In this document: positions 836 to 29,300 of the stretch, in pieces
Layout: each line of letters starts with the position of its first letter
Numbering within the stretch: the first letter of the stretch is position 1
Assembly (NCBI GenBank): GCA_964019135.1
Contig: OZ025249.1
Coordinates: 4,774,001 to 4,838,000, forward strand
Direction of reading: 5' to 3'
DNA from: Arenicola marina
Lineage: Eukaryota; Annelida; Polychaeta; Arenicolidae
Length of the DNA: 64,000 nucleotides
The notes under the pieces: generated by a model
The model's input: the letters and a program-made list of their open reading frames with translations, nothing else
Told to the model about the DNA's origin: nothing
The model's database searches: none
Made by a program: the position numbers and the translations under genes

Positions 836-920
836 TTGTTTCATTTGTGCACACAAGGGCTGAAGTGGCCCGATCAATATCCCAAGATAGTAATTGGATG
901 AAGAACGGCTCTGATTCGGA
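836..920 (-). repeat. tRNA-SINE tail fragment (minus strand)
   Basis: The reverse complement shares the segment TTGTGTGCACAAA and the following bases with the 3' part of the SINEs at 18667-18855 and 24057-24220. No tRNA-like head or target-site duplication is visible, so this looks like an old truncated copy. The assignment rests only on this short match. Confidence 0.4.
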
Positions 921-1679
921 CCGAAGACCAGTGACATCGACACAGATTTTGAAAACGACACTGAACTTAGCCAAAAATAGCGACACTGGACGACACTGAA
1001 ATTTGTGAAAAATCGACACTGGACCCTGGCCGCCACCGTAATGGCGTAAAGCATCAATGCATGCATTCATTCATTTAATGTGGGATTTGCTGCCGGCCTG
1101 TTGCTGAATTCATGAAAAAAATAACCAATAGACGAAACGCATGGTGTGTGCGATTGGGTGTAACGTAATATGCAATAAGCCTCATTGTTGTATAGAAGTA
1201 AAGTAAATCTAAGGTGTCATGCTCTGTTGCTTCGGTGTCTCGCCGAATATGAGATATTCAGAGGCCAACGCTAACAGGTGAATGAAATACACAAAGCATG
1301 ACCACGAGGAACGTCAGATCGCGATAATAGGGAGGTAATTACGTGCAGCGAGCAGTTAATACACTTCCAGGTAACTGTTTGACATGAAGTGACGTGGAAG
1401 GTCTGTTGGTCGCTGTCAATGTGTGTGGTGACTGTGTGTATGTTGTGTCTAGGCGCAAAATAACGTCATGACGTGAAAACCTGGCGGAGAGGGCCGGGGC
1501 GTTTCATACCTGTGCTATCGACAGCAGGGGGCAGGGAGGGGTGGAGAGGAGGGGAGCCCTCGGGTAAGGCACTCGCCGGGGTTGTTAAGGGGAGGGGTGG
1601 TGGTAAGCAAGTATAAGGGTGTTGTGTTGTAGTTCTCGATAAAAATTGTCAGGTGTGGTGTGGAATTGCGTGGATGGAT

Positions 1680-1815
1680 GAGGTAGGGAGGGGAGCGGGG
1701 CGGGGGTGAGCGGGAGATGTAGAGCGGAGAGTGGGAGGGGAGGGGAGGGGAGGGATAGGGGGGGGGGGGGGAGGGGAGGAGAGCGGGGAGCGGGGGCTGG
1801 TGAGCGGGAGTTGGT
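1680..1815. repeat. G-rich purine tract
   Basis: This is a strongly strand-biased G/A tract of GGGGAG and GAGCGGG-type blocks. It has no exact period. It could form G-quadruplex or triplex DNA, but that is inferred from composition only. Confidence 0.6.
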
Positions 1816-4779: not shown

Positions 4780-4926
4780 CGATAATCATCGTTTTCATCG
4801 CCATCACAGTCGGTCTCACTGGAAGACCCGATATCGTCAGCGGGATATGCAGCACCAAATGGGAAAAAAAGAGGCCTAAAGCGCAGATGTTAGGCTGGCT
4901 GTACTGCATTCGGCGTCATCCCTGCT
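4780..4926 (+). other. possible hydrophobic exon, unassigned
   Basis: A good polypyrimidine tract and acceptor (CTGTTGCAG) end at 4779. They are followed by an open frame beginning with the hydrophobic run IIIVFIAITVGL, then a basic segment and a TGA. It could be the last exon of a gene starting left of the window, or chance. There is no family match and no partner exon in view. Confidence 0.15.
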
Positions 4927-5253
4927 GAGATACCAACTCCATTGCCGCCTTCGGTTTATCGGTATCACTCAGCAAAGTACAACACGCATATACAATCGAG
5001 CGCCTTATGGAATTCCAAAAAGTCAGTAGATCCACGCCAACGCATTTTGAATAGCAGCCCAAACGGAATACCCGCACGTAACAGGCTCCAGGGACCACCA
5101 ACCCGTTAAGACTGGGGAGGACGCGCAGTCAGTGGACAACATCAAGTTAATTTTAATTCACGCTGCGCGAGGGAACGGAGGTTGGACGATATGTTCGATG
5201 GCTTGGTAGTCACGGTTGAGCGATTGAAACTGGTGCCTTGCGTCGCCTTGACC

Positions 5254-5365
5254 ATGGAGATGACTCACAGACAGCCTTCGTGTGCTCGCCATGGAAATGT
5301 CAAGCCGGGGCATATCAAGAAAATCATTGTGGTCACCCTTCTCGCAATCTTCGTTCTGCCTCCAG
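5254..5365 (+). CDS. Gene 1 exon 1: signal peptide
   Basis: The ATG at 5254 sits in a strong context (ACCATGG) and was chosen over an in-frame ATG at 5191 in a weak context. The encoded 37 residues have a basic stretch then the hydrophobic core IIVVTLLAIFVLPP, as in a signal peptide. The exon ends CCAG before gtaag at 5366, in phase 1, which exactly matches the acceptor at 14263 and makes a Gly codon. An upstream 5' untranslated exon is possible. Confidence 0.7.
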
Positions 5366-8300
5366 GTAAGAATTCGAATTCCTTGTACATGACTGCGTAG
5401 GTGGTGTGTGTGCACGCATACCCTTTCGTCTCACAACCCAGCCTCACGGTCAGCCATCAATGCCATCTCATGCCTCTATAGTCATCCAATTGTATAGTCC
5501 ATGTGCGTGGGTTGTATAGGGTTTCAACGCCTATTAGTTTATGCGTACAAAGGCAGTCCATTTACCTCTAAGTCTTTTGTATTTACTTTTGAGCCTGGCA
5601 CCCGTAGGCTTTTATAAAATATGCGAGAAGTGGGTCGCAATACTTATAAGAAGACCCGGCCACAATTGGAGTCCAATTAGCTTATTTAAAACCATTCGCG
5701 TTGAAAAAAAATCGTGTTCAGAAACTCACGCGTGGTAGGGCATGTGCTGGGGTTAGACACCGTGCAGCATGCAGACAGCAGCAAACATACATGGCATGCT
5801 ATGTACACCGCGCTAATACGTAGACCAACCGGCCATTATTAAAAGTTCTTTTGAAGGGAAACTTCATTGAAACTGTCAAAATCCTTGGTGTCGACGCCTC
5901 TCGTAAGGTCACACCAGCTACCCACCCCCCCCCCCCCCACCCACCCTCTGCCCGTCTTGCCAGTTGTTCGATCATTCTATAAAAGGACCACAATGCGTGA
6001 TGCGCCGTCTTGCTAAAGAGACCATGACATGCAATTTGAAAGCCGCGTACAACATAGACATAAATATCCCCCAGGCATACGACTGATGTGCAGCTACCAG
6101 ACGCCATGACCTCAATTTTGTCTGCCGCGTTGTCGGCCTTTTATGGTAGGAGGGCATGTGAATTAAGAGTTAAGAATCAGTCATCCCCTCCGTCTGCCAC
6201 GACATCCCCATTGAAAATCAACAGACAAGTGACACATGGGCCGCACAGCATGAGAAACAGAGAGATGTGCATCGCCCGAATCGCTGGAATGGCGTAGAAT
6301 AAGGAGTGACTTCAACGCACAATCGTTGCTTTTCGCACAAAAGGCGCGCTGACTGCGACCGTGCAACCAATATGAAAGCTTGTGTAACCGGGGCGAGCAT
6401 GCGCGTCCCTATAGCAACACCTAGCGGCGAGAGTGTCATGATTAATTATTATTATATGTTCCTATGCGATACCCGTTCGCTGTCACTTGCGTACTCGTAG
6501 ATGATAAATAACTACCCACCCCCCATACAACAAGATATCTCGTCACCGAGGCTGTGATGATAGTGGGCACCCGCCAGCTCAGAAAATACACATGTTTTGC
6601 AATTTATGCGGAAAAAATGAGTACTGTATGATCCTGGTTTGTACTTTGGCGATGCGCATAATGGAAGGACGACGATTTGCATGTTCGCCTTTCTTGCTGC
6701 ATTTTCTCCGACGCAATTAACTAAAACCACAGTTCGCTGATAACATATATGTACTCCTTCAGCGAAGGAGGATGTTCCTCATCAGCTCACCGATGGCTAG
6801 GCAGGAGATCACACAACACACTTGGCTCTTGCAAATGACCCCGTGGTCACTGGGTGCACCTCTCAGCGGCCCAACCAACGCCAAACCTTCCTTCAGGCTA
6901 TTGTATAAATTATGCTTATGTTCCTACCTCCGATGACAGCATGTTCTCCGCAACATGAGTAGTGCTGAGCGTGAAAAATGCGTTTAAGAGGCGATACAGG
7001 CGCTAAAAACGTGCCATAGTGTCGGGGGTGGTGGGTGATGGGGGTGACTGGGTGTGTGTGTGGGGAGGGGGGGGGGGCGGGGGGTATTACCCCCGCCAAT
7101 GCACGTGGACCCCAGGCTTATCAAGTATGACGTACTTGACCGTGATGTTGCACGCGAAACCTATTAAAACCTTGCTTCAGGGAGGTAATGGGTTTTCAAT
7201 GCGTCTTTTTTAACAGCGAGAATGGGTCAACGCGTCCTTTTAAGGTAGGCTTTACCCCAGAACCGGAAGCCAGTCAGCCCAATTTGCTGGGATGAGCTCT
7301 TCCGCCCCACACAGAATGGACGGCCATAGCGGTCTATGTTACTTCAGGGCAAAATGAAATATAATAATACATATTAATACCAATAAGTCGGTGAACCATG
7401 AGTACCTTTGAGGTATCACGTGACTTCGTGGGCTCGTCACGCTTCTTTCTCGTTGGTGGTGAGCGACTTGTTGTCAGCCAGGCGTGTCAAATGGCGTTTA
7501 GGGTACATTTACCATGGCGTCCACGCGCAGCATGCAGGCCCTGGTGCATGTCCGCTACGACACGCGGCCGTTACAAGGCAGCCGTTACACGCGGCCATTA
7601 CACGGCAGCCGTTACAAGACAGCCGTTTACACGACAGCCGTTAAACGACAGCCGTTACACGGCAGCCGTTACACGGCAGCCGTTACACGCGGCCGTTTCA
7701 AGGCAGCCGTTACACGCGGCCATTACACGGCAGCCGTTACACGACAGCCGTTACACGCGGCCATTACACGGCAGCCGTTACACGACAGCCGTTACACGGC
7801 AGCCGTTACACGACAGCCGTTACAAGGCAGCCGTTACACGCGGCCATGACACGGCAGCCGTTACACGACAGCCGTTACAAGGCAGCCGTTACACGCGGCC
7901 ATTACAAGGCAGCCGTTACACGACAGCCGTTACACGGCAGCCGTTACACGGCAGCCGTTACACGGCAGCCGTTACACGACAGCCGTTACACGACAGCCGT
8001 TACAAGGCAGCCGTTACACGCGGCCATGACACGGCAGCCGTTACACGACAGCCGTTACAAGGCAGCCGTTACACGCGGCCATTACAAGGCAGCCGTTACA
8101 CGACAGCCGTTACACGGCAGCCGCTACACGGCAGCCGTTACACGACAGCCGTTACACGACAGCCGTTACAAGGCAGCCGTTAAACGCGGGCCATGACACG
8201 GCGGCCGTTTAGGCGGTCCAGCTATTACACGGCGGCCGTTAGGTGGTCCAGCTATTACACGGCGGCCGTTAGGTGGTCCAGCTATTACACGGCGGCCGTT

Positions 8301-11300
8301 AGGTGGTCCGGCTATTACACGGCGGCCGTTAGGTGGTCCAGCTATTACACGGCGGCCGTTAGGTGGTCCGGCTATTACACGGCGGCCGTTAGGTGGTCCG
8401 GCTATTACACGGCGGCCGTTAGGTGGTCCGGCTATTACACGGCGGCCGTTAGGTGGTCCGGCTATTACACGGCGGCCGTTAGGTGGTCCGGCTATTACAC
8501 GGCGGCCGTTAGGTGGTCCGGCTATTACACGGCGGCCGTTAGGTGGTCCAGCTATTACACGGCGGCCGTTAGGTGGTCCGGCTATTACACGGCGGCCGTT
8601 AGGTGGTCGAGCTATTACACGGCGGCCGTTAGGTGGTCCGGCTATTACACGGCGGCCGTTAGGTGGTCGAGCTATTACACGGCGGCCGTTAGGTGGTCCG
8701 GCTATTACACGGCGGCCGTTAGGTGGTCGAGCTATTACACGGCGGCCGTTAGGTGGTCCAGCTATTACACGGCGGCCGTTAGATGGTCGAGCTATTACAC
8801 GGCGGCCGTTAGGTGGTCCGGCTATTACACGGCGGCCGTTAGGTGGTCCAGCAATTACACGGCGGTCGTTACGTGGTCCAGCTATTACACGGCGGCCGTT
8901 AGATGGTCGAGCTATTACACGGCGGTCGTTAGGTGGTCCAGCAATTACACGGCGGTCGTTACGTGGTCCAGCTATTACACGGCGGCCGTTAGGTGGTCCG
9001 GCTATTACACGGCGGCCGTTAGGTGGTCCGGCTATTACACGGCTGCCGTTAGGTGGTCGAGCTATTACACGGCGGCCGTTAGGTGGTCCAGCTATTACAC
9101 GGCGGCCGTTAGATGGTCGAGCTATTACACGGCGGCCGTTAGGTGGTCCGGCTACTACACGGCGGCCGTTAGGTGGTCCAGCTATTACACGGCGGTCGTT
9201 ACGTGGTCCAGCTATTACACGGCGGCCGTTAGGTGGTCCGGCTATTACACGGCGGCCGTTAGGTGGTCCGGCTATTACACGGCGGCCGTTACGTGGTCCA
9301 GCCATTTTACCGCAGCTTAAACATCCCCAGTCCTGCTTGTAACAGGCCATGTTATCTCGTCAACTGAGATATCCTGGCCGTGCACCAGTTTCAGTTTAGA
9401 AAATTACATTTAAAGACATTAGTAGGCGTGCACCGTTTGCCAGTCGATCAGGCTGAGCCGCAGGTCATGGGTTCGAACCATTGCAGCGGGAGTCGGTGTC
9501 ATCAAACCCCATTTCAAGAGTATGTCAGTCTTCCATGATTAAGATGTTAAATAAGTACCAGCCGTATACGAGGAATGTCCCGGTGTCTCCGGCGGTCTGT
9601 GTGTAGCCACAGTAGTTTTAAGGTGCGACAAATGTGACCACTTGATTGGTCATTGGGCTGTCGACGAGTCTCCCGTGACAGTTAGTTACCGGGTAACAAT
9701 TTGGGAACCTGAATACATCGCCCTCCCACCCCCCACCCCAGCCAGCCGCTCTCCCACCCCCACCCCAGCCAGCCGCCCTCCCACCCCCCACCCCAGCCAG
9801 CCGCCCTCCCACCCCCCACCCCAGCCAGCCGCTCTCCCAGTCACGCTTCCATGACCACAACCAGCGCTTCTGACTGATTCTGAGATTAGGGGTTGATTAG
9901 CATCGAAATGCAATGACACATTGCATTCCAGGAATTTCAAGTACACCCCCTCACACGCACCCCCGCACCCCACGCACCCCGCACCCATCCAGCACCCCCG
10001 CAACCCCGACGCACACCCACACTTCCAAGTGCCATCTTTGACCCACCCATCTCCCCGGCCACGCACACAATTCACCGGATTACATAACTGGCATAAGTGG
10101 GAAAGAGCGCCTCTAGTGGTTATGTAAGTTAGGAATGACAAACTAGTGCGTAGCACCGCATGTCTCCCCAAATGGTCGCCTCTTGAAAATATGCTGGGGG
10201 TCGGCGCGTTGCAGGCTGGGAAACGCCACGTGACCAGATCGTAATGGCGCAATTACCCAGTTTTTGGCTCATGGCGCTGAAACGGTTGTAGTGGCAGCGA
10301 TTTAGCTGAGATTTCAGACCGGCGTAATGATGAATACAACATGCGAGTTAAAACTGACACCCATTGTCCCATGTGACGCAGTGTTCCGCCTTGCTTCACA
10401 TGCCGCCGTCATCTGAGCTCTGCATCTGAGCCGTCGATGACTCGTCTCCTCATTGTAACGTGGTCATCGGTGGACACTGTGGCGCGCAGTGGAATGTCTT
10501 TGATGTGGCCGCAGTGTTGTTATTGGTATCACTGGGTCAATAACGGTCGCTACCGGTGAGAGCATTACCTGGGCAATAAAAGCCACGCAGAGTTGTCTTT
10601 GAAGGCAGGGACGCCGCGAGAGGTCGGGTGGGGGTGACTTTGGTCAGGGTTGGGAGAGGGAAGCAGGGTAGTTAAGTTCTAATGCTATTGTCCGTCGCTG
10701 AAGTTATTGAGTTTTGTTCTCACTTGGAGACCTGTGGAGTTCTGACCAGGGGAACGTGCAGCGTTGTGGGTTCGACTTCTGCAACAGTAACTGTCACTTC
10801 TAACGCTCACCAAAGTGTAATACGCTCTTGTAATCATTTAACGAAATATGACAACCAAAACTGGAGGAGTATTTGTTAGTAATAAAGAATCGTGGAAGTA
10901 AAACATTGGCATAACTTGTCCAGGCGAACTATGCACGCGTTCATCATAAAAATAAGAAAGTACGCTATTAGACCGATGAAATCAGATTCTTCCCATAAAC
11001 TTTTTGTAACGTTAGTGTATGCCGTCAATTCATTTCCAGTCGCCCAATAGAGTCAAATAAGGATCTAATTTTGCGATTATTATGCAACATTAAAATTCGT
11101 AGTAACTTTTTGTGGATATTTCCGTGTGAATTGAATCAGATTCTCACGCCGCCATATCATCCGTCGCCATAGGCAACCAGACAACTCCCCTTACCGCGGT
11201 GACGGTGTGTCGCTGAGGGGACGTGGGTGGGCGGGAGAGGGGGTGCCGTGGTTATTAAGGCAAGAAAGTAGGCTCGTTAACATCGTTAACATGACAGCCG

Positions 11301-14300
11301 GGTCGTTGACATGGCAGCCGGGTCGTTGACATGGCAGCCGGGTCGTTGACATGACAGCCGGGTCGTTGACATGACAGGTGGGTCGTTTACATGGCAGCCG
11401 GGTCGTTGACATAGTAGCCGGATCGTTGACATGACAACAGGGTCGTTGACATGCCAGCCGGGTCTTTGACATGACAGCCGGGTCTTTGACATGACAGGCA
11501 GTTCGTTGACATGGTAGCCCCGTTGTTGATATGAGAGGCGGGTCGTTGACATGGTAGCCGGGTCGTGGACATGGCAGGCGTGTCGTTGACATGGCAGCCG
11601 GGTCGTTAACATGACAGCCGGGTCGTTGACATGGCAGCCGGGTCGTTGACATGGCAGCCGGGTCGTTGACATGGCAGCCGGGTCGTTGACATGACAGCCG
11701 GGTCGTTGACATGACAGGTGGGTCGTTTACATGGCAGCCGGGTCGTTGACATAGTAGCCGGATTGTTGACATAACAACAGGGTCGTTGACATGACAGCCG
11801 GGTCTTTGACATGACAGGCAGGTCGTTGACATGGTAGCCGCGTTGTTGATATGAGAGGCGGGTCGTTGACATGGTAGCCGGGTCGTGGACATGGCAGGCG
11901 TGTCGTTGACATGACAGGTGGGTCGTTTACATGGCAGCCGGGTCGTTGACATGGAAGCCGGGTCGTTGACATGACAGGTGGGTCGTTGACATGGCAGCCG
12001 GATCGTTGACATGACAGTTGAGTTGTTGACATGGCAGCCGGGTTGTTGACATGACAGCAGGGTCGTTGACATGACAGCCCGGTCGTTGACTTGACGTTTG
12101 TTGATCACGGTATCGCCAAAACAACGCTTCTTTCTCAGCTCTCCGCTTGGTTGCGGTGTAGTTGCCAGGAAGCGAATACATGGAATTGTTGTTGTCCCTC
12201 CTGTATCGTTAGTTAATTGGTCCGGCATTATTCTTAAGCCAATTAATGGAGACACGGTGTGCAATTAGAGGCATAAAGCCTCTCACTCCTGTACCGACCT
12301 GATGTGGTAAATAAAAATATTAATGCTATCGAGTACCCCCCTCCCCCCCCCGGGAGGTAGTTAATACAAACACGTTACATAGCTACGTCCTCAGGCCGGG
12401 GGGGGGGGGGGGTGGGGGAGGGGGTCCGCGTTAAAGCCCCCACCTTTTTACCGCCTAAATCCGCTCTTTTTCCTCACAAATGTCCGTTCTCTCAGGCATC
12501 AAGGCCCCCGCGGAACATCCCCGTCAGATTTGTATAATAGTGCCCCCCCGGGGGGTCCTCAGAACATTTTATATGGCGATAGGAACAATAACATGTCTGG
12601 CCACCAAGAGGGTTAACCAAACGAACCTGGTCTCGTGGAGGTTTCACTGGGTTGGGTTAATGACGAGTACTTTGGTGGTACCCTGGTCTGGTGTCATGTA
12701 GGTTCTACTGGTTTGGATTAATGACGACTACTTTGGTGGTACCCTGGTCTGGTCTGATGGAGGTTCCACTGGTTTGGGTTAATGACGAGTACTTTGGTGG
12801 TACCCTGGTCTGGTGTCATGGAGGTTCCACTGGTTTGGGTTAATGACGAGTACTTTGGTGGTACCCTGGTCTGGTGTCATGGAGGTTCCAATGGTTTGGG
12901 TAAATGACGAGTACTTTGGTGGTACCCTGGTCTGGTCTGATGGAGGTTCCACTGGTTTGGGTTAATGACGAGTACTTTGGTGGTACCCTGGTCTGGTCTA
13001 ATGGAGGTTCCAATGGTTTGGGTTAATGACGAGTACTTTGGTGGTACCCTGGTCTGGTGTCATGAAGGTTCCACTGGTTTGGGTTAATGACGAGTACTTT
13101 GGTGGTACCCTGGTCTGGTCTGATGGAGGTTCCACTGGGTTGGATTAATGACGAGTACTTTGGTGGTACCCTGGTCTGGTCTGATGGAGGTTCCACTGGT
13201 TTGGGTTAATGACGAGTACTTTGGTGGTACCCTGGTCTGGTCTGATGGAGGTTCCACTGGTTTGGGTAAATGACGAGTACTTTGGTGGTACCCTGGTCTG
13301 GTCTGATGGAGGTTCCAATGGTTTGGGTTAATGACGAGTACTTTGATGGTACCCTGGTCTGGTGTCATGGAGGTTCCAATGGTTTGGGTTAATGACGAGT
13401 ACTTTGATGGTACCCTGGTCTGGTGTCATGGAGGTTCCAATGGTTTGTGTTAATGACGAGTACTTTGGTGGTACCCTGGTCTGGTCTGATGGAGGTTCCA
13501 ATGGTTTGGGTTAATGACGAGTACTTTGGTGGTACCCTGGTCTGGTGTCATGGAGGTTCAACTGGTTTGGGTTAATGACGAGTACTTTGGTGGTACCCTG
13601 GTCTGGTCTGATAGAGGTTCCACTGGTTTGGGTTAATGACGAGTACTTTGGTGGTACCCTGGTCTGGTGTCATGGAGGTTCCACTAGTTTGGGTTAATGA
13701 CGATTACTTTGGTGGTACCCTGGTCTGGTCTGATGGAGGTTCCACTGGTTTGGGTTAATGACGAGTACTTTGGTGGCACCCTGGTCTGGTCTGATGGAGG
13801 TTCCACTGGTTTGGGTTAATGACGAGTACTTTGGTGGTACCCTGGTCTGGTCTAATGGAGGTTCCAATGGTTTGGGTTAATGACGAGTACTTTGGTGGTA
13901 CCCTGGTCTGGTGTCATGGAGGTTCCACTAGTTTGGGTTAATGACGAGTACTTTGGTGGTACCCTGGTCTGGTGTCATACAGGTTTCACTGGTTTGGGTT
14001 AATGACGAGTACTTTGGTGGTACCCTGGTCTGGTCTAATGGAGGTTCCAGTGGTTTGGGTTAATGGCGAGTACTTTGGTGAAAAGAAAACCACCGAAAAT
14101 GTCGATTCGCGCTTCCGATTTGGATGCCGAATCGACATTTTCTCTTGGTTTCTCCTTAAACCGAAATCACATGGCACAAGTGAAACAGGTCAACCCGTGG
14201 CTTTACAAGCAGATATTAGTTATAGTTGTATTGGTTAATGTGAAGGTGTGGTTTTTTTTGCAGGAGTGACCTCAGACGCTGCGCCCACACAGGAAGGTTT

Positions 14301-17300
14301 CAGCGACGAGCCGCGCCCAACAACAACCTTCGAGGTCCCGGAGTTCATCGGGCATGAGAATCCCTTTCCCTATGTCCCTGGCAGTGACGGCGGTGTGCTG
14401 GGGGAAGGCGGTGTACCGGGGGAAGGCGGTATGCTGGGGGAAGGCGGTGTACCGGGGGAAGGCGGTGTGCTGGGGGAAGGCGGTGTGCCGGGGAAAGGCG
14501 GTGTGCCGGGGGAAGGCGGTGTGGAAAGCAGTGTACCGGGAGAGGGCGGTGTACCGGGGGGAGGCATTTTGCCCGACGAGTCCCGAGATAAGCAAGGCAC
14601 GCCCTCTGGCGAGGAGAGCGCGGCAGAAAAGGTGACCACCGTTGAAACACCCCCAGGAGTGGAGGATGGGGTCAAGGTCGTCACGTCCGTCCTACCTGTC
14701 AGCAATGCAACCAACCCAACGACGCAACCGACACCGGACGTGGGCGGCGGCGAGAGCTCCCCTATTGTCGCCCAGCCTGACTCCGCTGCAACAGTTGAAG
14801 AGGTCTACACCACGCGGCATCCTGACGCCCAGATGTCCATGGTGAGCTCAGCAGCGCCCAGTGAGGAGGCCCCAGGCTCGTCTCCACCCGCGGCTCCCGT
14901 CTCGTCCTCGGGGGCACAGGCTCGTACCACGGCTACACCGGTTGACATATCACAACCCGAGCCACCGGTTGTGATGACAACGGCAGCTGGAGTAGAGACA
15001 CAATCACACGTTGTGATGACAACGGCAGCTGGAGTAGAGACTCAGCCACTCGTTGTGATGACAACGGCAGCTGAAGTAGAGACACAACCACCAGTTGTTA
15101 TGACAACAGCAGCTGGAGTAGAGACCCAGCCACCCGTTGTAATGACAACAGCAGCTGAAGTAGAGACACAACCACCCGTTGTGATGACAACAGCAGCTGA
15201 AGTAGAGACACAACCACCCGTTGTGATGACAACAGAAGCTGGATTAGAGACACAACCACCCGTTGTGATGACAACAGCAGCTGAAGTAGAGACACAACCA
15301 CCCGTTGTGATGACAACGGCAGCTGGAGTAGAGACACAACTACCCGTTGTGATGACAACGGCAGCTGAAGTAGAGACCCAACCACCCGTTGCTATGACAA
15401 CAGCAGCTAGAGTAGAGACACAACCACCCGTTGTGATGACAACAGCAGCTGGAGTAGAGACACAACCACCCGTTGTGATGACAACGGCAGCTGGAGTAGC
15501 GACACAACTACCCGTTGTGATGACAACGGCAGCTGAAGTAGAGACCCAACCACCCGTTGTTATGACAACAGCAGCTGGAGTAGAGACACAACCACCCGTT
15601 GTGATGACAACAGCAGCTGGAGTAGCGACACAACTACCCGTTGTGATGACAACGGCAGCTGAATTAGAGACCCAACCACCCGTTGCTATGACAACAGCAG
15701 CTGGAGTAGAGACACAACCACCCGTTGTGATGACAACAGCAGCTGGAGTAGCGACACAACTACCCGTTGTGATGACAACGGCAGCTGAAGTAGAGACCCA
15801 ACCACCCGTTGTTATGACAACAGCAGCTGGAGTAGAGACCCAGCCACCGGTTGTGAAGACAACAGCAGCTGAAGTAGAGACCCAACCACCCGTTGTGATG
15901 ACAACAGCAGCTGGAGAAGAGACACAACCACCAGTTGTTATGACAACAGCAGCTGGAGTAGAGACACAACCACCCGTTGTGATGACAACAGCAGCTGAAG
16001 TAGAGACACAACCACCCGTTGTGATGACAACGGCAGCTGGAGTAGAGACCCAACCACCCCTTGTTATGACAACAGCAGCTGGAGTAGAGACACAACCACC
16101 CGTTGTGATGACAACGGCAGCTGAAGTAGAGACCCAACCACCCGTTGTTATGACAACAGCAGCTGGAGTAGAGACACAACCACCCGTTGTGATGACAACA
16201 GCAGCTGGAGTAGCGACACAACTACCCGTTGTGATAACAACGGCAGCTGAAGTAGAAACCCAACCACCCGTTGTTATGACAACAGCAGCTGGAGTCGAGA
16301 CCCAGCCACCGGTTGTGAAGACAACAGCAGCTGAAGTAGAGACCCAACCACCCGTTGTGATGACAACAGCAGCTGGAGAAGAGACACAACCACCAGTTGT
16401 TATGACAACAGCAGCTGGAGTAGAGACCCAGCCACCCGTTGTGATGACAACGGCAGCTGGAGTAAAGACACAACTACCCGTTGTGCTGACAACAGCAGCT
16501 GGAGTAGAGACCAAGCCACCGGTTGTGATGACAACGGCCGCTGCTGAAGCAACACAACCACCGGTTATGGTGACCGCGGAAGAGGCAGATAATATGACAA
16601 CGGCCTCTGCGGAATCAACACAACCACCGGTTATGGTGACCGCGGAAGAGGCAGATAATATGACAACGGCAGCTGCGGAAGCAACCCAACCACCTGTTAT
16701 GGTGACCGCTGAAGAGGCAGATAATATGACAACGGCAGCTGCGGAAGCGACACAACCACCGGTTATGGTGACCGCTGAAGAGGCAGATAATGTGACAACG
16801 GCAGCTGCGGAAGCAACACAACCACCATTTGTGGTGACTGCAAATATGACAACGGCAGCTGCGGAAGCGACACAACCACCGGTTATGGTGACCACTGAAG
16901 AGGCAGATAATATGACAACGGCAGTTGCGGAAGCAACACAACCACCGGTTGTGGTGACCGCAAATATGACAACGGCAGCTGCGGAAGCGACACAACCACC
17001 GGTTGCGGTCGCGACTGTTTCTGTTGTAAACAATATCACATCAGAAACAACGCAATCAGCGATGGCGACAGCAACTGCTGAAGTTTCTGAAGGACGGCTT
17101 TCCGCCAATGGTACGGCGGTAGTAACACCTAGCGGGAGCGCGACTACTACAGTTTCCACGGTGACAGAACGCCCCTCTACGTCAGCACATTCGACGAAGG
17201 CGACGATGGCGGCCGGTGCGGTGGTCGTGGAGGGCCAACTCCGGCTGGCGGAGGGCGTCGAGTGGAATGACGACCTGAGGGATCCGACATCGGAGAGCTA

Positions 17301-20300
17301 CAAGGCGCTGGAAAAAGACGTGAACAAGGCGGTGAGTTCCATCGAGATCTAAGACTTTGTTTTCTTGGTCGATATTCCAACCCACTTTATCCACTATTCA
17401 GTTGAAAAATGTCGCTTACGTTTTCACCTGACATGGCAACCGTTTATCAAGGTTGCTGAACAAAGTACCATTTTCAAGCATTTGCTTAGTGTAATAACAT
17501 CTGATTCATTTTGTCATGAAGAAGTGTCCAATTGATATATTATGTGGTATCCATGTTTGTTTTTCCAGCTGAGAGACCTCTTCATGAAAACTAAGCAGTC
17601 TGAGAATTTTGTTGGCATTGAAGACATTCAATTCAGGTATACTATTCTTCAATGGCAAGGGTGGCCTCCCTGGTGTAGTGGTTAGCGCACTAGACCGCAG
17701 ATCAATAGGTCCTGGGTTCGAATCCGGGCTCGGGCACCTAATCTGGGGCATGTTTCATTCCTTCATCCTTCATCGTCCCGGGAGGTTCATTGGCCCAATT
17801 TAGCCTGTATGTGCACAAAAGTGGCCTAAAACACCAACATTTCATTTCACTTCAATGGCAAGCATTGATAATTTTATTTACTTGATTCAAGACGCAATGA
17901 ACCACAATTCGCATTGACCGAAATAAACAAGTCTATCAGTAACAATGTCAGAGACACCTTGCTTCGTGGCATATATGCGATATACATATAAGTATATATG
18001 TTTATTTACTGCCCCCCCTTACCCGCCTCCCCACCCTACACACACACACAGCCCGGGCAGCGTCGTGGTGTACTTCAAGGCGGTCTTCAAGCCCAACGCC
18101 GACGTGGACGCCGAGGATCTGGCTGATGCCTTCAGCCAGGAGGCGGCGCAAAGCTTCGGCAACTACACGCTGGACCCCGCCTTCGAGTTTGAGGGTAAGT
18201 GGGTGAGGGTGAATGTGAGTGGGCGACGCCCTAGATCAGCCGTCACGGCTTGAGGGTGAGGGCGAGTGGGTGACGCCCCAGCTCAGCCGTCACGGCGTGA
18301 GGGTGAGGGTGAGTGGGTGAGGCCCTAGCTCTGCAGCCACGGCGTGAGGGTGTGGGTGAGTGGGTGAGGCCCTAGCTCAGCCGTCACGACGTGAGGGTGA
18401 GGGTGAGTGGGTGAGGCCCTAGCTCTGTCGCCACGGCTAGCTCTGCCCCAATACAGGGCAAGCAAAGTTAGTGCGTTGGAGTATCTATTGTAGGAGGCTA
18501 GGTTAGACGGATTGCTGGTTTCTACTACCTGTCACCTTTCTTGTCCTATTAAGGTTAAGTTAAGTACTTAAACCTTTCACCATGACACGAAAGGATGAAG
18601 CGGCCTAAAGCATCAAGGCAGTTGAACTCGTCACTTGTGGTTTGCAGGCAGGTTAGCTTGGAAAGTGGGGCCCCTGTAGTGTACTGGTTAGTGCACTAAA
18701 CCGCAGAACAACAGGTCCTGGGTTCATATCCGGGTCTGGACACCGAATTGTTTAATGCCTCCATTCTTCGTCGTCTCGGGGGTTTCCCGGACCCAGGTTA
18801 ACCCTTGTGTGCACAAAAGCGGCTTAGAACCTCTATTAATTTCACAGTTAGGAAGCTCACGTGACAGTGTCCTGATGTGTCTGTTGCAGTGCTGCGTCCT
18901 GCGGTGCCACGCACGGAGCCGACGGTGGGCAGCACATTGGCACGAGGCACGACTCCTCCAAGACCTACAACCGTCACCATGGGAACGGAGCTTGGCCACA
19001 CGACTGTCGCTCCGTCCTCGGCAAGGACTTCACAGAACATGGGTTCCGAAGCCACAAAGGGTAATACTGTGGAATATGTGCCAGGCGTGACGACTCCGAA
19101 AGTTGTCGAATTGACCACGCCGAAAGCTGTCGATTCCACATCAAAAGCTGTCGAAGTGACCACGCCGACAGCTGTCGAAATCACGACTCCAAGAGCTGTC
19201 GATTCCACCACATCGAAAGTTGTCGAAGTGACCACGCCGAAAGCTGTCGAAGTGACCACGCCGACAGCTGTCGAAATTACGACACCAAGAGCTGTCGATT
19301 CCACCACATCGAAAGTTGTCGAAGTGACCAGGCCGAAAGCTGTCGAAGTGACCACGCCGACAGCTGTCGAAATCACGACACCAAGAGCTGTCGATTCCAC
19401 CGCATCGAAAGTTGTCGAAGTGACCACACCGAAAGCTGTCGAAGTAACCATGCCGACAGCTGTCGAAATCCCGACACCAAGAGCTGTCGATTCCACACAA
19501 CCACCGGTTATGGTGACCGAAGAAAAGGCAGATAATATGACAACGGCAGCTACGAAAGCGACACAACCACCGGTCATGGTGACCACTGAAGAGGCAGATA
19601 ATATGACAACAGCAGCTGCGGAAGCCACACAACCACCGGTCATGGTGACTACTAAAGAGGCAGATAATATGACAACGGCAGCTGCGGAAGCGACACAACC
19701 ACCGGTTATGGTGACCGCTGAAGAGGCAGATAATATGACAACGGCAGCTGCGGAAGCCACACAACCACCGGTTATGGTGACCGCTGAAGAGGCAGATAAT
19801 ATGACAACGGCAGCTGCAGAAGCGACACACCCACCGGTTATGGTGACCGCTGAAAAGGCAGATAATATGACAACGGCAGCTGCGGAAGCGACACAACCAC
19901 CGGTTATGATGACCACTGAAGAGGCACATAATTTGACAACAGCAGCTGCGGAAGCGACACAACCACCGGTTATGGTGACCGCTGAAGAGGCAGATAATAT
20001 GACAACGGCAGCTGCGGAAGCGACACAACCACCGGTTATGATGACCACTGAAGAGGCAGATAATATGACAACGGCAGCTGCAGAAGCGACACAACCACCG
20101 GTTATTGTGACGAAAGAAGAAACAGATAATATGACAACGGCCGCTGCGGAAGCCACACAACCACCTGTTATGGTGACCGCTGAAGAGGCAGATAATATGA
20201 CAACGGCAGCTGCGGAAGCAACACAACCACCGGTTATTGTGACGAAAGAAGAAACAGATAATATGACAACGGCCGCTGCAGAAGCAACACAACCACCTGT

Positions 20301-23300
20301 TATGGTGACCACTGAAGAGGCAGATAATATGACAACGGCAGCTGCGGAAGCCACACAACCACCGGTCATGGTGACCACTGAAGAGGCAGATAATATGACA
20401 ACGGCAGCTGCGGAAGCAACACAACCACCTGTTATGGTGACCGCTGAAGATGCAGATAATATGACAACGGCAGCTGCGGAATCAACACAACCACCGGTTA
20501 TGGTGACCGCTGAAGAGGCAGATAATATGACAACGGCAGCTGCAGAAGCGACACAACCACCGGTTATGGTGACCGCTGAAGAGGCAGATAATATGACAAC
20601 GGCAGCTGCGGAAGCGACACAACCACCGGTTATGGTGACGTCTGAAGAGGCAGGTAATATGACAACGGCAGCTGCGGAAGCGACACAACCACCGGTTATG
20701 GTGACCACTGAAGAGGCAGATAATATGACAGCGACACAACCACCGGTTATGATGACCACTGAAGAGGCAGATAATATGACAACGGCAGCTGCAGAAGCGA
20801 CACAACCACCGGTTATGGTGACCGCTGAAGAGGCAGATAATATGACAACGGCAGCTGCGGAAGCGACACAACCACCGGTTATGGTGACGTCTGAAGAGGC
20901 AGGTAATATGACAACGGCAGCTGCGGAAGCGACACAACCACCGGTTATGGTGACCACTGAAGAGGCAGATAATATGACAGCGACACAACCACCGGTTATG
21001 ATGACCACTGAAGAGGCAGATAATATGACAACGGCAGCTGCGGAAGCGACACAACCATCGATTATGGTGACCGCTGAAGAGGCAGATAATATGACAACGG
21101 CAGCTATGGAAGCCACACAAGCACCGATCATGGTGACCACTGAAGAGGCAGATAATATGACAACGGCAGCTGCGGAAGCAACACAGCCACCGGTTATGGT
21201 GACCGCTGAAGAGGCAGATAATATGACAACGGCAGCTGCGGAAGCCACACAACCACCGGTCATGGTGACCACTGAAGAGGCAGATAATATGACAACGACA
21301 GCTGCGGAAGCAACACAACTACCTGTTATGGTGACCGCTGAAGATGCAGATAATATGACAACGGCAGCTGCGGAAGCAACACAACCACCGGTTATGGTGA
21401 CCGCTGAAGAGGCAGATAATATGACAACGGCAGCTGCGGGAGCGACACAACCACCGGTTATGGTGACCGCTGAAGAGGCAGATAATATGACAACGGCAGC
21501 TGCGGAAGCGACACAACCACCGGTTATGGTGACCACTGAAGAGGCAGATAATATGACAGCGACACAACCACCGGTTATGATGACCACTGAAGAGGCAGAT
21601 AATATGACAACGGCAGCTGCGGAAGCGACACAACCACCGGTTATGGTGACCGCTGAAAAGGCAGATAATATGACAACGGCAGCTGCGGAAGCGACACAAC
21701 CACCGGTTATGGTGACCGCTGAAGAGGCAGATAATATGACAACGGCAGCTGCGGAAGCGACACAACCACCGGTTATGGTGACCACTGAAGAGGCAGATAA
21801 TATGACAACGGCAGCTGTGGAAGCAACACAACCACCGGTTATGGTGACCGCTGAAGAGGCAGATAATATGACAACGGCAGCTGCGGAAGCAACACAACCA
21901 CCGGTTATGGTGACCACTGAAGAGGCAGATAATATGACAACGGCAGCTGCGGAAGCGACACAACCACCGGTTATGGTGACCGCTGAAGAGGCAGATAATA
22001 TGACAACGGCAGCTGCGGAAGCGACACAACCACCGGTTATGGTGACCACTGAAGAGGCAGATAATATGACAACGGCAGCTGCGGAAGCAACACAACCATC
22101 CTTTGTGGTGACCGCAAATATGACAGCGGCAGCTGCGGAAGCGACACAACCACCGGTTATGGGGACCACTGAAGAGGCAGATAATATGACAACGGCAGCT
22201 GCGGATGCAACACAACCACCGGTTGTGGTGACCGCAAATATGACAACGGCAGCTGCGGAAGCGACACAACCACCGGTTGCGGTCGCGACTGTTTCTGTTG
22301 TAAACAATATCACATCCGAAACAACGCAATCAGCGATGGCGACAGCAACTGCTGAAGTTTCTGAAGGACTGCTTTCCGCCAATGGTACGGCGGTAGTAAC
22401 ACCTAGCGGGAGCGCGACTACTACAGTTTCCATGGTGACAGAACGCCCCTCTACGTCAGCACATTCGACGAAGGCGACGATGGCGGCCGGTGCGGTGGTC
22501 GTGGAGGGCCAACTCCGGCTGGCGGAGGGCGTCGAGTGGAATGACGACCTGAGGGATCCGACATCGGAGAGCTACAAGGCGCTGGAAAAAGACATGAACA
22601 AGGCGGTGAGTTCCATCGAGATCTAAGACTTTGTTTTCTTGGTCGATATTCCAACCCACTTTATCCACTATTCACTTGATAAATGTCGCTTTCGTTTTCA
22701 CCTGACATGGCAACCGTTTTTCATTGTTGCTGTACAAAGTACCATTTTCAAGCATTTGTTTAGTGCAATAACGTCTGATTCATTTTGTCATGAAGAAGTG
22801 TCCAATTGATATATTATGTGGTATCCATATTTGTTTTTCCAGCTGACAGACCTCTTCATGAAAACTAAGCAGTCTGAGAATTTTGTTGGCATTGAAGACA
22901 TTCAATTCAGGTATACTATTCTTCAATGGCAAGCATTGATATTTGTATTATCTTGATTCAAGTCGCAATGAACCACAATTCGCACTGACCGCTATAAACA
23001 AGCTTGAGGCTAAGTGGGATGTCAGCGTTGCGTGGTATATTTTAAATCAAGATAATGTGCTCACGGCCCGCAATTGAGTGTAATGAATCTAGAATGTTTT
23101 GAGCCATAATGAGACCCTAATATGTGCACGTCGATCTCACGGAAAATAATCAAATGAGTTAAAGACATTATTTATGTTTTGTGTATACATACGTAATTCT
23201 ATGAGGTTAAGCCAAAAATTGATTTTAATTGGCCGAATTATTTTACACTGTTGTGATGACAATTATTTAGATGACGTCATCATGACTATCCGCTACCGAC

Positions 23301-26300
23301 TCAATGTCTGCGGAAGACGTCACATGGTGGAATATATGCGATATACATATAAGTATATATGTTTATTTACTGCCCCCCCTTACCCCACCCCCCCCCCCCC
23401 CCTTCCTACACACACACACAGCCCGGGCAGCGTCGTGGTGTACTTCAAGGCGGTCTTCAAGCCCAACGCCGACCTGGACGCCGAGGATCTGGCTGATACC
23501 TTCAGCCAGGAGGCGGCGCAAAGCTTCGGCAACTACACGCTGGACCCCGCCTTCGAGTTTGAGGGTAAGTGGGTGAGGGTGAGGGTGAGGGTGAGTGGGT
23601 GACGCCCCAGCTCAGCCGTCACGGCGTGAGGGCGAGGGTGAGGGTGAGTGGGTGACGCCCCAGCTCAGCCGTCACGGCGTGAGGGTGAGGGTGAGGGTGA
23701 GTGGGTGACGCCCTAGCTCTGCAGCCACGGCGTGAGGGTGAGGGTGAGTGGGGAGGCCCTAGCTCAGCCGTCACGGCGTGAGGGTGAGTGGGTGAGGCCC
23801 TAGGTCTTTCGCCACGGCTAGCTCTGCGCCAATACAGGGCAAGCAAAGCTAGTGCGTTGGAGTATCTATTGTAGGAGGCTAGGTTAGACGGATTGTTGGT
23901 TTCTACTACCTGTCACCTTTCTTGTCCTATTAAGGTTAAGTTAAGTACTTAAACCTGTCACCATGACACGAAAGGATGAAGCGGCCTAAGTCATCAAGGC
24001 AGTTGAACTCGTCACTTGTGGTTTGCAGGCAGGTTAGCTTGGAAAGTGGGGCCCCTGTAGTGTACTGGTTAGTGCACTAAACCGCAGATCAACAGGTCCT
24101 GGGATCATATCCGGGTCTGGACCCCGAATTGTTTAATACCTCCATTCTTCGTCGTCCCGGGGGGTTCTCTGACCCTTGTGTGCACAAAAGCGGCTTAGAA
24201 CATCTATTAATTTCACAGTTAGGAAGCTCACGTGACAGTGTCCTGATGTGTCTGTTGCAGTGCTGCGTCCTGCGGTGCCACGCACGGAGCCGACGGTGGG
24301 CAGCACATTGGCACGAGGCACGACTCCTCCAAGACCTACAACCGTCACCATGGGAACGGAGCTTGGCCACACGACTGTCGCTCCGTCCTCGGCAAGGACT
24401 TTACAGAACATGGGTTCCGAAGCCACAAGGGGTAATACTGTGGAATATGTGCCAGGCGTGACGACTCCGAAAGTTGTCGAATTGACCACGCCGAAAGCTG
24501 TCGATTCCACATCAAAACCTGTCGAAGTGACCACGCCGACAGCTGTCGAAATCACGACGCCAAGAGCTGTCGATTCCACCACATGGAAAGCTGTCGAAGT
24601 GACCACGCCGACAGCTGTCGAAGTGACCACGCCGACAGCTGTCGAAATTACGACACCAAGAGCTGTCGATTCCACCACATCGAAAGTTGTCGAATTGACC
24701 ACGCCGACAGCTGTCGATTCCACATCAAAAGCTGTCGAAGTGACCACGCCGACAGCTGTCGAAATCACGACACCAAGAGCTGTCGATTCCACCACATCGA
24801 AAATTGTCGAAGTGACCACACCGAAAGTTGTCGAAGTGACCACGTCGAAAGCTCTCGAAATCACGACACCGAGAGCTGTCGATTCCACCACATCGAAAGT
24901 TGTCGAAGTGACCACACTGAAAGCTGTCGAAGTGACCACGCCGACAGCTGTCGAAATCACGACACCAAGAGCTGTCGATTCCACCACATCGAAAGTTGTC
25001 GAAGTGACCACACCGAGGGCTGTCGAAGTGACCACGCCGAAAGCTCTCGAAATCACGACACCAAGAGCTGTCGATTCCACCACATCGAAAGTTGTCGAAG
25101 TGACCACACCGAAAGCTGTCGAAGTGACCACGCCGAAAGCTCTCGAAATCACGACACCAAGAGCTGTCGATTCCACCACATCGAAAGTTGTCGAAGTGAC
25201 CACACCGAAAGCTGTCGAAGTGACCACGCCGAAAGCTGTCGAAATCACGACACCAAGAGCTGTCGATTCCACCACATCGAAAGTTGTCGAAGTGACCACA
25301 CCGAAAGCTGTCGAAGTGACTACGCCGAAAGCTGTCGATTCCACATCAAAAGCTGTCGAATTGACTACGCCGAAAGCTGTCGAACTCACGACACAAAGAG
25401 CTGTCGATTCCACGACAGCGAAAGTTGTCGAAGTGACCACGCCTAAAGCTGTCGAAATCACGACACAAAGAACTGTCGATTCCACCACTTTGAAAGCTGT
25501 CGAAGTGACCTCGCCGAAAGCTGTCGAAGTGACCACACCGAAAGCTGTCGAAATCACGACACAAAGAGCTGTCGATTCCACGACAGCGAAAGTTGTCGAA
25601 GTGACCACACCGAAAGCTGTCGAAGTGACCACGCCGAAAGCTGTCGAAATCACGACACCAAGAGCTGTCGATTCCACCACATCGAAAGTTGTCGAAGTGA
25701 CCACACCGAAAGCTGTCGAAGTGACTACGCCGAAAGCTGTCGATTCCACATCAAAAGCTGTCGAATTGACTACGCCGAAAGCTGTCGAACTCACGACACA
25801 AAGAGCTGTCGATTCCACGACAGCGAAAGTTGTCGAAGTGACCACGCCTAAAGCTGTCGAAATCACGACACAAAGAACTGTCGATTCCACCACTTTGAAA
25901 GCTGTCGAAGTGACCTCGCCGAAAACTGTCGAAGTGACCACACCGAAAGCTGTCGAAATCACGACACAAAGAGCTGTCGATTCCACGACAGCGAAAGTTG
26001 TCGAAGTGACGACGCCGAAAGCTGTCGAAACCACAACACAAAGAGCTGTCGATTCCACGACAGCGAAAGTTGTCGAAGTGACCACGCCGAAAGCTGTCGA
26101 AACCACGACGCCAAAAGCTGTCGAAACCACGACACCAAGAGCTGTCGAAACCCCGACGCCAAAAGCTGTCGAAACCACGACGTCAAAAGCTGCCGAAATC
26201 ACAACGATGCCCAAACCAGTCGAAGCAACGACGAGTGGGGCGCCCAAGGTGACGTTACAAACTACTCCTCAACCGCTGATACGCACCACGGCCGCTGAGG

Positions 26301-29300
26301 ATGACGTCACTCTCGCGGGCAAGCTGCGTTTGACCGGCGGCGTGGAGTGGAACGACGATCTGGCGGACGTGACGTCACAGAGCTACCGGGCCTTGAAGGA
26401 CGACCTCAACCAGTCGGTCAGTAGCTTCAGATAAATACAGCTGTTAACATATTGTAAGTGTACTTAGCGCCATGTTGTCTCCATTTATTTCTGGTGGGCA
26501 ATATAGATCGGCCCGAAATGTATATTATTTGATATAAATTGGTTCCATGCTAAACAGTGGAGTCACCGTTGTTACTTCATGCCTTGGCTCCACGTTAAAC
26601 TAAGTGCCATACAGCAGTAATAATGACGCACCATAATCATTTGTCATTGCAGCTTACAGACACATTCAGGAAAAGTTCTGCGGGAAGTAATTTTCTGCGG
26701 ATCGAAGACGTAACGTTCAGGTGGGTAACTCATTCTGGATGACGTCATGGATAACGACACCGTCACAGATGACGTCACCTAAACGTACTGATATGCAGCG
26801 ACACGGATTGATTTCATGTAACAATATTATTACAATCGGTTTATTATGAGCTCATTTCATATGAACAATCTATAACAATAGGTTTATTATGAGCTCATTT
26901 CATGTAGACAATCTATAACAATAGGTTTATTACGAGCTCATTTCATGTAGACAATCTATAACAATAGGTTTATTACGAGCTCATTTCATGTAGACAATCT
27001 ATAACAATAGGTTTATTACGAGCTCATTTCATGTAAACAAGCTATAACAATTATTATTACTTTCATTCAATTAAATCCATAACATAGTCCAATTTAATGC
27101 CGGTTCTCTGGGCTCTATGTGAAGGCAATGTGACAATGACCAGCATGCGCCTATTGTTTGTCCCCTCCAGCCCAGGCAGCGTCGTGGTCTCATACGTGGC
27201 GGTCTTTACACCAGCGGCAGAGATCGATACCCAACAGTTAGCAGACACATTCCGACGAGAAATTCAGAACGGAACCGCCTTCAATAAATATGAGATCGAT
27301 CCAGATTTCACCAGCTTCCAGGGTAAGACAGCCTGGGAGTGCTGGATCACCACCCCCAGGGTAAGACAGCCTGGGTGTGCTGGATCACCACCCCCAGGGT
27401 AAGACAGCCTGGGTGTGCTGGATCACCACCCCCAGGATAAGACAGCCTGGGTGTGCTGGATCACCACCCCCAGGGTAAGACAGCCTGGGTGTGCTGGATC
27501 ACCACCCCCAGGGTAAGACAGCCTGGGTGTGCTGGATCACCACCCCCAGGGTAAGACAGCCTGGGTGTGCTGGATCACCACCCCCAGGGTAAGACAGCCT
27601 GGGTGTGCTGGATCACCACCCCCAGGGTAAGACAGCCTGGGTGTGCTGGATCACCACCCCCAGGGTAAGACAGCCTGGGTGTGCTGGATCACCACCCCCA
27701 GGGTAAGACAGCCTGGGTGTGCTGGATCACCACCCCCAAGTGTGGATCATACAGGGATGAAACTCATTCTCAGTCCCACATCGATCATATCTGGCGTTCG
27801 TTATTATAGTTTTGTCGTTTATTTGGCCTTATGGGTTTATCTGACCTCACCCCTTACCCAGTCGTCGATATTAACCTGTGAGGTTATTAACGTGTGACAT
27901 TGGATTCCCCTGTGATGTTATTAACCTGTGATACGATATTAACCTGTGATACGATATTAACCTGCGATACGATATTAACCTGTGATCTCACACTGTCAGC
28001 CAGCTTTGACGTCCGACCCATATTTAATACAGTGACCTGGCCATATCCTGTGATTCGGCTTTGACCTGTAATCTGATATTACCCTGTGTATCAATCTTAC
28101 CGTGTGACCCGGAATTGATCTGACTTGTCCTTGACCTGTGACCTGTCCTTGGCCTGTGACCCGTCCCTAACCTGTGACCTGTCCTTGACCTGTGACCCGT
28201 CCTTGACCTGTAACCCGTCCCTAACCTGTGACCTGTCCTTGACCTGTGTGTATGTGTTTCCCCCAGTGTTTGACCCCCGGACGTCGCCCCCGCGTGGCGT
28301 GGAGACGACCCCCGTACCCGGGGGCGCGCTGACGTCCTACCAGTTCCCGGACTGGTCCATCGGGGTCATCGTGGCCGCCGGGGTGCTCCTCATCTTCTTC
28401 GTCCTCTTCGGCATCGTCATGGTCAGTGCTCCCGTCCCGTCCTCGTCACCTCAGTACCGCATTGGCGAGTTACACAGCGTGTAACAGCCGTAATCATTAC
28501 CAGCGGCTATTCAACGTTAATGATTTTGTTGTGTGGGCAATCAACGTGTGCTTTCACTGGCGATATTATGATAGTGATATTATTAGGAGTTGGCGGGGGT
28601 TGGGGTTGGGGGGGGGGGGGTCTTAACAATGTGTCAATCATCTAATTGCTCTTACATGTAATGCCTAACATGTTCTGACGACGCTTTACGCCCTGGTTGT
28701 TGCAGTGCTGCACGCATAAGCGCAAGAAGGACCGCATGTACAAGTTGAACCAGGAGCCGTCGACGAGTCCCAAGACTCGGTACGCGATGCGTCAGGATGA
28801 CCTGGGCCAGTACCTGATCCTGGTGGAGAAGGAACCCCTGGCGGACGGCAAGCGGGAGCTCCAGGCCCGCCCCGCCCCCACCGCCCCCGCCCCCTCACCC
28901 GCACACAGCGCGCGCACCTCCAGCCCGTCCGACCCCCAGGGGGCCAGCTCGCAAGGCTCGGCTTCCGGTTACCGTTTGCGGCAGCAGATGGAAAGGCGGT
29001 CTTCTGGCGGAAGTGGCTCCACGGTCCTCGTCCGCCCGGTCAACGGCGGCGCGCGCACCCAGGTCAACGGGGGCTTCACCGGTGACGTCATCATGACTAG
29101 CGCCGACGTCAGCCCGACCCCCTCCTCCGTCCGCCCCCCCGTCCCCGCCCCGCGCCAGCTGAGTCGCCGACACACGCCGCCAGACGGCAACAGCTCCATT
29201 GAGGAGGATGAGGACACAGACACCGTGGGTCGAGGCCTAGATCAAGGTCACGGCTCAGGTCAAGGTCACAATGTACCGGACCGGGGTGACGACTCCACGG

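Follow-up and report, generated by a model that had tools for sequence, protein, structure and literature searches.

A predicted membrane mucin of the annelid Arenicola marina with three SEA domains in series, each carrying a GSVVV cleavage motif

We analyzed a 64,000-nucleotide stretch of the Arenicola marina genome (GenBank contig OZ025249.1, positions 4,774,001 to 4,838,000, forward strand), called the window here, with positions counted from its first letter. We found that it carries a gene whose product is probably a MUC1-type single-pass membrane mucin with three self-cleaving SEA modules in series. Eleven exons on the plus strand, built from window DNA at 13000-24000, 24000-24500, and 26000-30200, join into one reading frame that stays open for 3,488 residues and has its only stop codon at the end. 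All 10 introns are GT-AG, and the phases match at each junction. The exons, the predicted scissile codons, and a candidate first coding exon are as follows.

5254-5365, plus strand: candidate first coding exon, with a start codon in GACCATGG context and the donor CAG/GTAAGA, in phase 1 as exon 2 requires
14264-17331, plus strand: exon with N-terminal linker, mucin block 1, and the first part of SEA1 (17221-17331); phase 1 in, 0 out
17569-17636, plus strand: SEA1 middle exon; phase 0 in, 2 out
18052-18194, plus strand: SEA1 last exon; phase 2 in, 1 out; PF01390 E value of 4.1e-16 for SEA1
18056-18058 (Gly) and 18059-18061 (Ser), plus strand: SEA1 predicted scissile codons, from the exon join
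18890-22605, plus strand: exon with mucin block 2 and the first part of SEA2 (22495-22605)
22843-22910, plus strand: SEA2 middle exon, from the exon join
23422-23564, plus strand: SEA2 last exon; PF01390 E value of 7.6e-16 for SEA2
23426-23428 (Gly) and 23429-23431 (Ser), plus strand: SEA2 predicted scissile codons, from the exon join
24261-26416, plus strand: exon with mucin block 3 and the first part of SEA3 (about 26297-26416)
26653-26720, plus strand: SEA3 middle exon, from the exon join
27171-27322, plus strand: SEA3 last exon; PF01390 E value of 2.9e-14 for SEA3
27175-27177 (Gly) and 27178-27180 (Ser), plus strand: SEA3 predicted scissile codons, from the exon join
28267-28421, plus strand: exon with juxtamembrane stalk and membrane helix SIGVIVAAGVLLIFFVLFGIVM, the helix called by eye
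28706-29434, plus strand: exon with the cytoplasmic tail, which begins CCTHKRKK and ends with the stop codon

The Pfam SEA family (PF01390) scored 59.5, 58.6, and 53.5 bits for SEA1, SEA2, and SEA3, respectively, compared to a cut-off of 26.4, and the matches cover positions 3-106, 3-106, and 4-106 of the 106-position profile. Scores over the cut-off across nearly the whole profile exclude chance for the three SEA domains. We found SPGSVVV in all three, in one shared column block of the alignment, and the pattern G-S-[VI]-[VI]-V of autoproteolytic SEA domains lies at the expected domain position in each. The first-pass annotation of this DNA had claimed three SEA domains with the canonical motif in one frame, each split over three exons in phases 0, 2, and 1. 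The exon join, the PF01390 matches, and the alignment confirm the domains and motifs, and the split and its phases are identical in all three. A pseudogene or a chance motif was ruled out by the open frame and the PF01390 matches.

SEA1 and SEA2 are 96% identical in protein, and SEA3 is 52% identical to SEA1. Despite this distance, SEA3 retains SPGSVVV; the chance that 7 given columns are all invariant is 0.008 by a hypergeometric estimate (58 of the 112 columns are invariant). Because SEA1 and SEA2 share 96% of their protein sequence and 98.5 to 99.3% of their exon DNA, the three matching domains do not count as independent observations. With a SEA domain as a single-sequence query, the best match among solved structures was Mucin-1 (E value, 8e-4), and this match runs to the cut-site Gly, where that chain ends. 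Bacterial toxin chains and other unrelated solved structures had profile E values of 0.12 or more (one was also found by single sequence, at 0.69) and were taken as chance.

The first-pass annotation had placed the mucin-SEA unit at 14264-27322, and both ends hold: 14264 is the start of the first mucin exon, and 27322 is the end of the SEA3 last exon. The transmembrane and tail exons (28267-29434) and the candidate exon at 5254-5365 lie outside that span. The candidate exon encodes a signal-peptide-like hydrophobic stretch, KKIIVVTLLAIFVLP. A scan of positions 1-14263 for phase-1 signal exons gave a single locus on the plus strand, namely this exon with three nested starts, and none on the minus strand. 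We regard it as a candidate signal-peptide exon of the mucin gene. The tail exon gave no Pfam family above its cut-off.

A 38-base tandem repeat at 27318-27738 (11.1 copies, 99% matches) contains the donor of the SEA3 last exon in its first unit. Ten successive copies of CAGGGTAAGA in this repeat make nine more identical donor-like sites. The read-through frame past the exon stops in the third repeat unit, so use of the later donors should break the protein.

Along the predicted chain, the order is that of a SEA-type transmembrane mucin: repeats, SEA, membrane helix (by eye), and cytoplasmic tail, with a modest content of proline, threonine, and serine. Block 1 has 14-residue repeats at 14962-16574 (n = 37) and then 22-residue repeats at 16528-16961 (n = 7), the repeat numbers being counted by short motifs. 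Block 2 begins with 8-residue repeats of the block 3 type (19087-19490) and continues with 22-residue repeats of the block 1 type (19495-22278; n = 43). Block 3 consists solely of 8-residue TTPKAVEV-type repeats (24458-26202), with no 14- or 22-residue type. The earlier description of each SEA domain as paired with its own mucin block is thus only partly right, since block 2 is a hybrid of the block 3 and block 1 types; three blocks alternate with the SEA domains. Each SEA module would sit membrane-proximal to its repeat block.

Cuts at all three Gly-Ser bonds would give four pieces of 1,048, 1,309, 789, and 342 residues, counted from exon 2 on, with predicted masses of about 105, 135, 83, and 37 kDa before glycosylation and with the first exon excluded. 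Serine and threonine together make up 21, 23, 30, and 16% of these pieces, and proline makes up 8 to 11% of the three mucin-bearing ones. The pieces have 10, 46, 2, and 2 N-x-S/T sequons. The 22-residue repeats of block 2 (19495-22278) hold 45, mostly N-M-T once per repeat, whereas block 3 has none, so that the layers would differ chemically. The model from exon 2 on has no cysteine before the membrane helix; of its three cysteines, two lie at the border of membrane and tail and the third lies in the tail. With no ectodomain cysteine in the model, no disulphide could tie the predicted pieces together.

We propose that each SEA domain would fold in the endoplasmic reticulum (ER), where strain at the turn would allow attack on the Gly-Ser bond by the Ser. 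This would leave a chain of four pieces joined by noncovalent SEA contacts, and pulling or shear would part it at one SEA domain, shedding everything distal and sparing the membrane. The motif GSxxV is described as marking autoproteolytic SEA domains, which are cut between strands 2 and 3 (PMC9478142), and by this rule all three SPGSVVV-bearing domains should cut. SEA cleavage is said to take place during ER folding, and SEA to unfold under force, in an account that calls its exact function undefined (PMC6705488). Cleavable SEA is also proposed to part under mechanical stress, sparing the cell, in work where the benefit was partly not significant (PMC11681175). We consider cleavage at all three sites likely. 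The four-piece product that the first-pass annotation had proposed is favored by three motifs in one frame and by the lack of an ectodomain cysteine in the model, but cleavage itself is only inferred; we judge the prediction sound but unproven.

It is rather unlikely that cleavage is confined to part of the SEA set (for example, SEA3, as in MUC1), with the distal ones serving, despite the motif, as folded spacers or contact domains. SEA domains in general include both proteolytic and nonproteolytic ones. SEA cutting is said to need fold strain besides the motif; Macao in 2006 and Johansson in 2008 reportedly found that cleavage depends on this strain and not on the motif alone. IMPG1 and IMPG2, which like the mucin have several SEA domains (two) in one glycosylated protein, are described as having a GSxxV motif and a reported cut in SEA-2, and no predicted cut in SEA-1 (PMC9478142). 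However, the motif is absent from their SEA-1, which is described as nonproteolytic (PMC9478142), whereas all three domains of the Arenicola protein keep the motif.

The first-pass annotation had further proposed that mucin blocks are shed in steps. In a drag model (simple series, equal domains, evenly spread drag), the tension at SEA1, SEA2, and SEA3 was 0.33:0.75:1, and the first break fell at SEA3 in 54, 76, and 92% of cases for Fx/kT values of 2, 5, and 10. Because the membrane-proximal SEA3 bears most of the drag tension and its break frees the whole ectodomain at once, stepwise shedding is not implied. The proposal as stated was not supported by this model, and we regard staged shedding as speculative. 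These values also bear on the idea that the three domains cleave without staging, with SEA3 yielding first in one-step shedding and SEA1 and SEA2 being redundant backups. We take this to be a real possibility, somewhat short of probable. It assumes equal strength, but SEA3 differs from SEA1 and SEA2 at about half its residues and may be stronger; 1.3, 3.3, or 6.7 kT of extra strength in SEA3 (Fx/kT of 2, 5, and 10) would give SEA1 equal odds. Moreover, a particle bound to block 1 would pull all three SEA domains equally. Under an end pull, each SEA domain in the model breaks with a probability of 1/3, and the pull ends at the first break.

Tuning of SEA3 strength is possible, SEA3 being the divergent domain. 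A more elaborate scheme, which we think doubtful, would have three breakable joints of tuned strength, with the sequon-rich block 2 and the sequon-free Thr-Pro block 3 sacrificed in turn and the number of joints varying from one individual to another by repeat recombination.

We searched the Arenicola marina genome (867 Mb, 762 contigs) for other SEA loci. The SEA1 protein gave eight matches, all in the three modules of the mucin gene: the first-exon and last-exon parts of all three SEA domains and the middle exons of SEA1 and SEA2. Further SEA modules in the mucin gene were ruled out by this search, with 8/8 matches at known modules. Searches with last-exon DNA gave two matches for SEA1 and one for SEA3, all at the mucin gene. 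PF01390 had no match at an E value of 0.001 in this genome or in 14 control genomes. At an E value of 10, it gave at least 16 matches in Arenicola (best E value, 0.0022), with two at the mucin gene and one over the cut-off; counts from the genome profile searches are lower bounds. The human MUC1 SEA domain found no match in the genome, a result that is uninformative because the exons are split. The membrane and tail part has no convincing paralogue, with five genome matches, two in the mucin gene and three outside at E values of 0.9 to 2. No relatives were found in viral and prokaryote contigs, as expected.

We read the 14 other PF01390 loci in 10-kb stretches and found three, L036, L038, and L044, with a Gly-Ser-Val last exon at a phase-2 acceptor. 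In all three, the last SEA exon begins one codon before Gly-Ser-Val, and candidate phase-0 and phase-1 donors lie at the other exon ends. The cut-site motifs are RPGSVVV in L038, RPGSVKV in L044, and RRGSVIA in L036. Thus, L038 is like the mucin gene in having a full GSVVV, whereas L044 and L036 lack the full motif and that of L036 does not end in V. The last-exon scan was weak: L036 (E value, 2.3) and L044 (3.6) were picked by eye for the motif, and the scan profile contained the L038 exon, so the L038 score is circular, although its splice site is independent of the profile. The same scans, weak in sensitivity, gave no Gly-Ser-Val last exon at the other 11 loci. No middle exons were found by scan at L036, L038, and L044, and these gene models are incomplete.

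The first-pass annotation had pointed to the identical exon phases of the three SEA domains. We found the same intron spot at all three of these loci, and a special meaning of the 0-2-1 phases was ruled out by this shared cut-site intron. On these splice predictions, SEA genes of Arenicola marina have this split structure in common, and to some extent the motif as well, and the identical phases look like an older SEA gene structure of the genome. No second SEA exon set was found at the 14 other loci, with a last-exon scan that would miss exons like those of L036 and L044. This hints that the series of three SEA domains may be unusual within its own genome.

Contig C18 carries 10 of the 16 weak PF01390 matches at an E value of 10. 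Six of these 10 have near-identical first-exon peptides and are spaced about 140 to 290 kb apart, which makes a local SEA gene family. At L035, the SEA match comes after a Thr/Pro-rich stretch. Contig C762 (15,942 bases) of the same assembly is the mitochondrial genome. Judged by eye at conserved positions, its cox1 fits a code that reads ATA as Met, AAA as Lys, and AGA as Ser. A 10,000-base part of it has nad4, tRNA-Val, large rRNA, nad1, a nad2-like gene, cox1, and cox2, arranged in that order on a single strand, which agrees with the annelid gene order.

We compared the SEA1 and SEA2 copies. The coding parts around the SEA domains, mostly outside the repeats, differ at 10 of 815 positions, and the first and third introns differ at 39 of 915 (4.3%). 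The exons are therefore less diverged than the introns (Fisher P value, 1.2e-4). A tandem repeat contributes to the intron figure; with it removed, the third intron differs at 15 of 442 positions. The second intron, 57% by raw alignment, was omitted owing to the following insert in copy 1 and a copy-specific stretch of about 300 bases in copy 2.

17648-17862, plus strand: insert in the SEA1 second intron resembling a short interspersed element (SINE), flanked by TTCAATGGCAAG repeats; tRNA-like promoter box seen by eye

The SINE-like insert spans 203 bases from repeat to repeat and is missing from the SEA2 intron, and this insert and the stretch peculiar to copy 2 point to separate histories of the two copies. 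Their divergence marks SEA1 and SEA2 as a recent tandem duplication and SEA3 as old. We think that the third SEA domain most likely arose by unequal crossing-over between the repeat blocks of a two-SEA ancestor. The hybrid order of block 2, with the block 3 type first and the block 1 type last, together with the near identity of SEA1 and SEA2, supports this. The symmetric 1-1 phase of the mucin-SEA module would have preserved the frame, and since the module is frame-neutral, the number of SEA modules may vary between individuals. The likeness of the two copies' exons may be maintained by gene conversion or by constraint on splicing. Between 17332-18889 and 22606-24260, synonymous sites differ at 1 of 208 positions compared to 39 of 915 in introns 1 and 3 (P value, 0.006). 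This low synonymous difference may be a sign of gene conversion across the exons.

Two explanations would make the third module, or the gene itself, an error. First, the SEA1/SEA2 pair could be an assembly artifact in which two alleles appear as a false tandem and the real gene has two SEA domains. A divergence of 4.3% is within the range of allelic differences in some marine invertebrates, and exon DNA that is about 99% identical would fit alleles as well. However, the copies share a frame and are separated by a hybrid block, one intron carries a SINE-like insert with its target-site repeat and the other has about 300 bases of its own, and the only two hits of the SEA1 last exon in the 762 contigs are both at the mucin gene. 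We consider the artifact very unlikely. Second, we give even less credence to a misjoin of neighboring genes or a dying gene. The SEA3 donor at the start of a tandem repeat with nine further donor-like sites would fit it, but eleven exons with matching phases encode 3,488 residues without an inner stop, and the exons are less diverged than the introns at the P value given above.

The predicted protein resembles MUC1 in its repeat block, GSVVV SEA domain, and single membrane helix. The MUC1 tail begins cysteine-basic at the membrane, as does the CCTHKRKK tail here. In contrast, MUC1 has one SEA domain and one cut, and the Arenicola gene has three SEA domains with mucin blocks between. MUC1, MUC12, MUC13, and MUC17 are listed with a single SEA domain each (PMC4456727). 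MUC1 is described as emerging in mammals (PMC9564314), so the Arenicola gene is unlikely to be a MUC1 orthologue.

MUC16 (CA125) likewise has several SEA domains in one membrane mucin. Its SEA repeats are tandem, without mucin blocks between, and we rejected the MUC16 type for the Arenicola protein, where 1,200 and 676 residues of repeat-bearing sequence separate the SEA domains. The Arenicola protein also differs in having GSVVV in 3/3 domains. Human MUC16, which was described in 2006 as unique among mucins in having several SEA domains (PMC1552070), is predicted to contain about 56 of them, with a single proposed DSVLV site (PMC4456727, PMC3431878), and it is described as uncleaved in the last two and cut within 12 residues of the membrane (PMC4456727). 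The contrast with MUC16 drawn in the first-pass annotation is thus borne out by the single proposed site (PMC3431878) and the two uncut last domains (PMC4456727), as these sources describe them. Among lophotrochozoans, the limpet Lottia gigantea has a shell matrix protein, Lotgi1|232880, said to have "several SEA domains"; it differs in being a chitin-binding matrix protein (PMC3374290).

Several points weigh against a MUC1-type mucin with three self-cleaving modules. For a mucin, the chain has a modest share of serine and threonine, falling to 10 per 100 residues at its lowest, in block 1, and the signal-peptide exon at 5254-5365 has candidate status only. SEA3 is far from SEA1 outside the motif and could fold with a different strain. 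Among solved structures, a profile of the three SEA domains ranks two proteins and one chance match above MUC1, all weakly. The two top-ranked transmembrane protease chains are presumably SEA domains. With MUC1 not in first place, we claim no special kinship to it. Of the coding changes between SEA1 and SEA2, 9 are nonsynonymous and 1 is synonymous, and the 4 that fall in the SEA domains are all nonsynonymous; we therefore make no claim that the new copy is under purifying selection at the amino acid level. There is no sign of such selection beyond the lower divergence of exons than of introns. Finally, shedding by a protease is possible; in a chimera assay, the MUC1 SEA domain is described as constitutively open to proteolysis (PMC6586460).

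Elsewhere, the window (1-64000) is dense in minisatellites, with 96 tandem-repeat rows (overlapping rows counted), many of them intronic, with periods of 14 to 66 bases. A second probable membrane protein lies at 53202-58325. It is made up of a long acidic open frame, a frame at 56287-56604 that encodes a membrane helix with basic residues at its flank, and a long frame for the tail, and it gave no Pfam family above its cut-off.

In the open PMC literature, we found no report of multiple GSVVV-type SEA domains in one chain and no report of annelid SEA mucins. Cleavage of mucin SEA domains is thought to provide a mechanical fuse that protects the cell, and the proteins that we found described have at most one such site per chain. 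In this annelid, the mucin gene and L038 both have the full GSVVV and an intron that lies one codon ahead of the cut, so the motif also occurs outside vertebrate mucins. The gene suggests a simple way in which fuses could be added, by recombination in the mucin repeats flanking a frame-neutral module. A natural chain with three sites would test how such a fuse scales: where it breaks first, whether shedding is ordered, and whether the domains are tuned.

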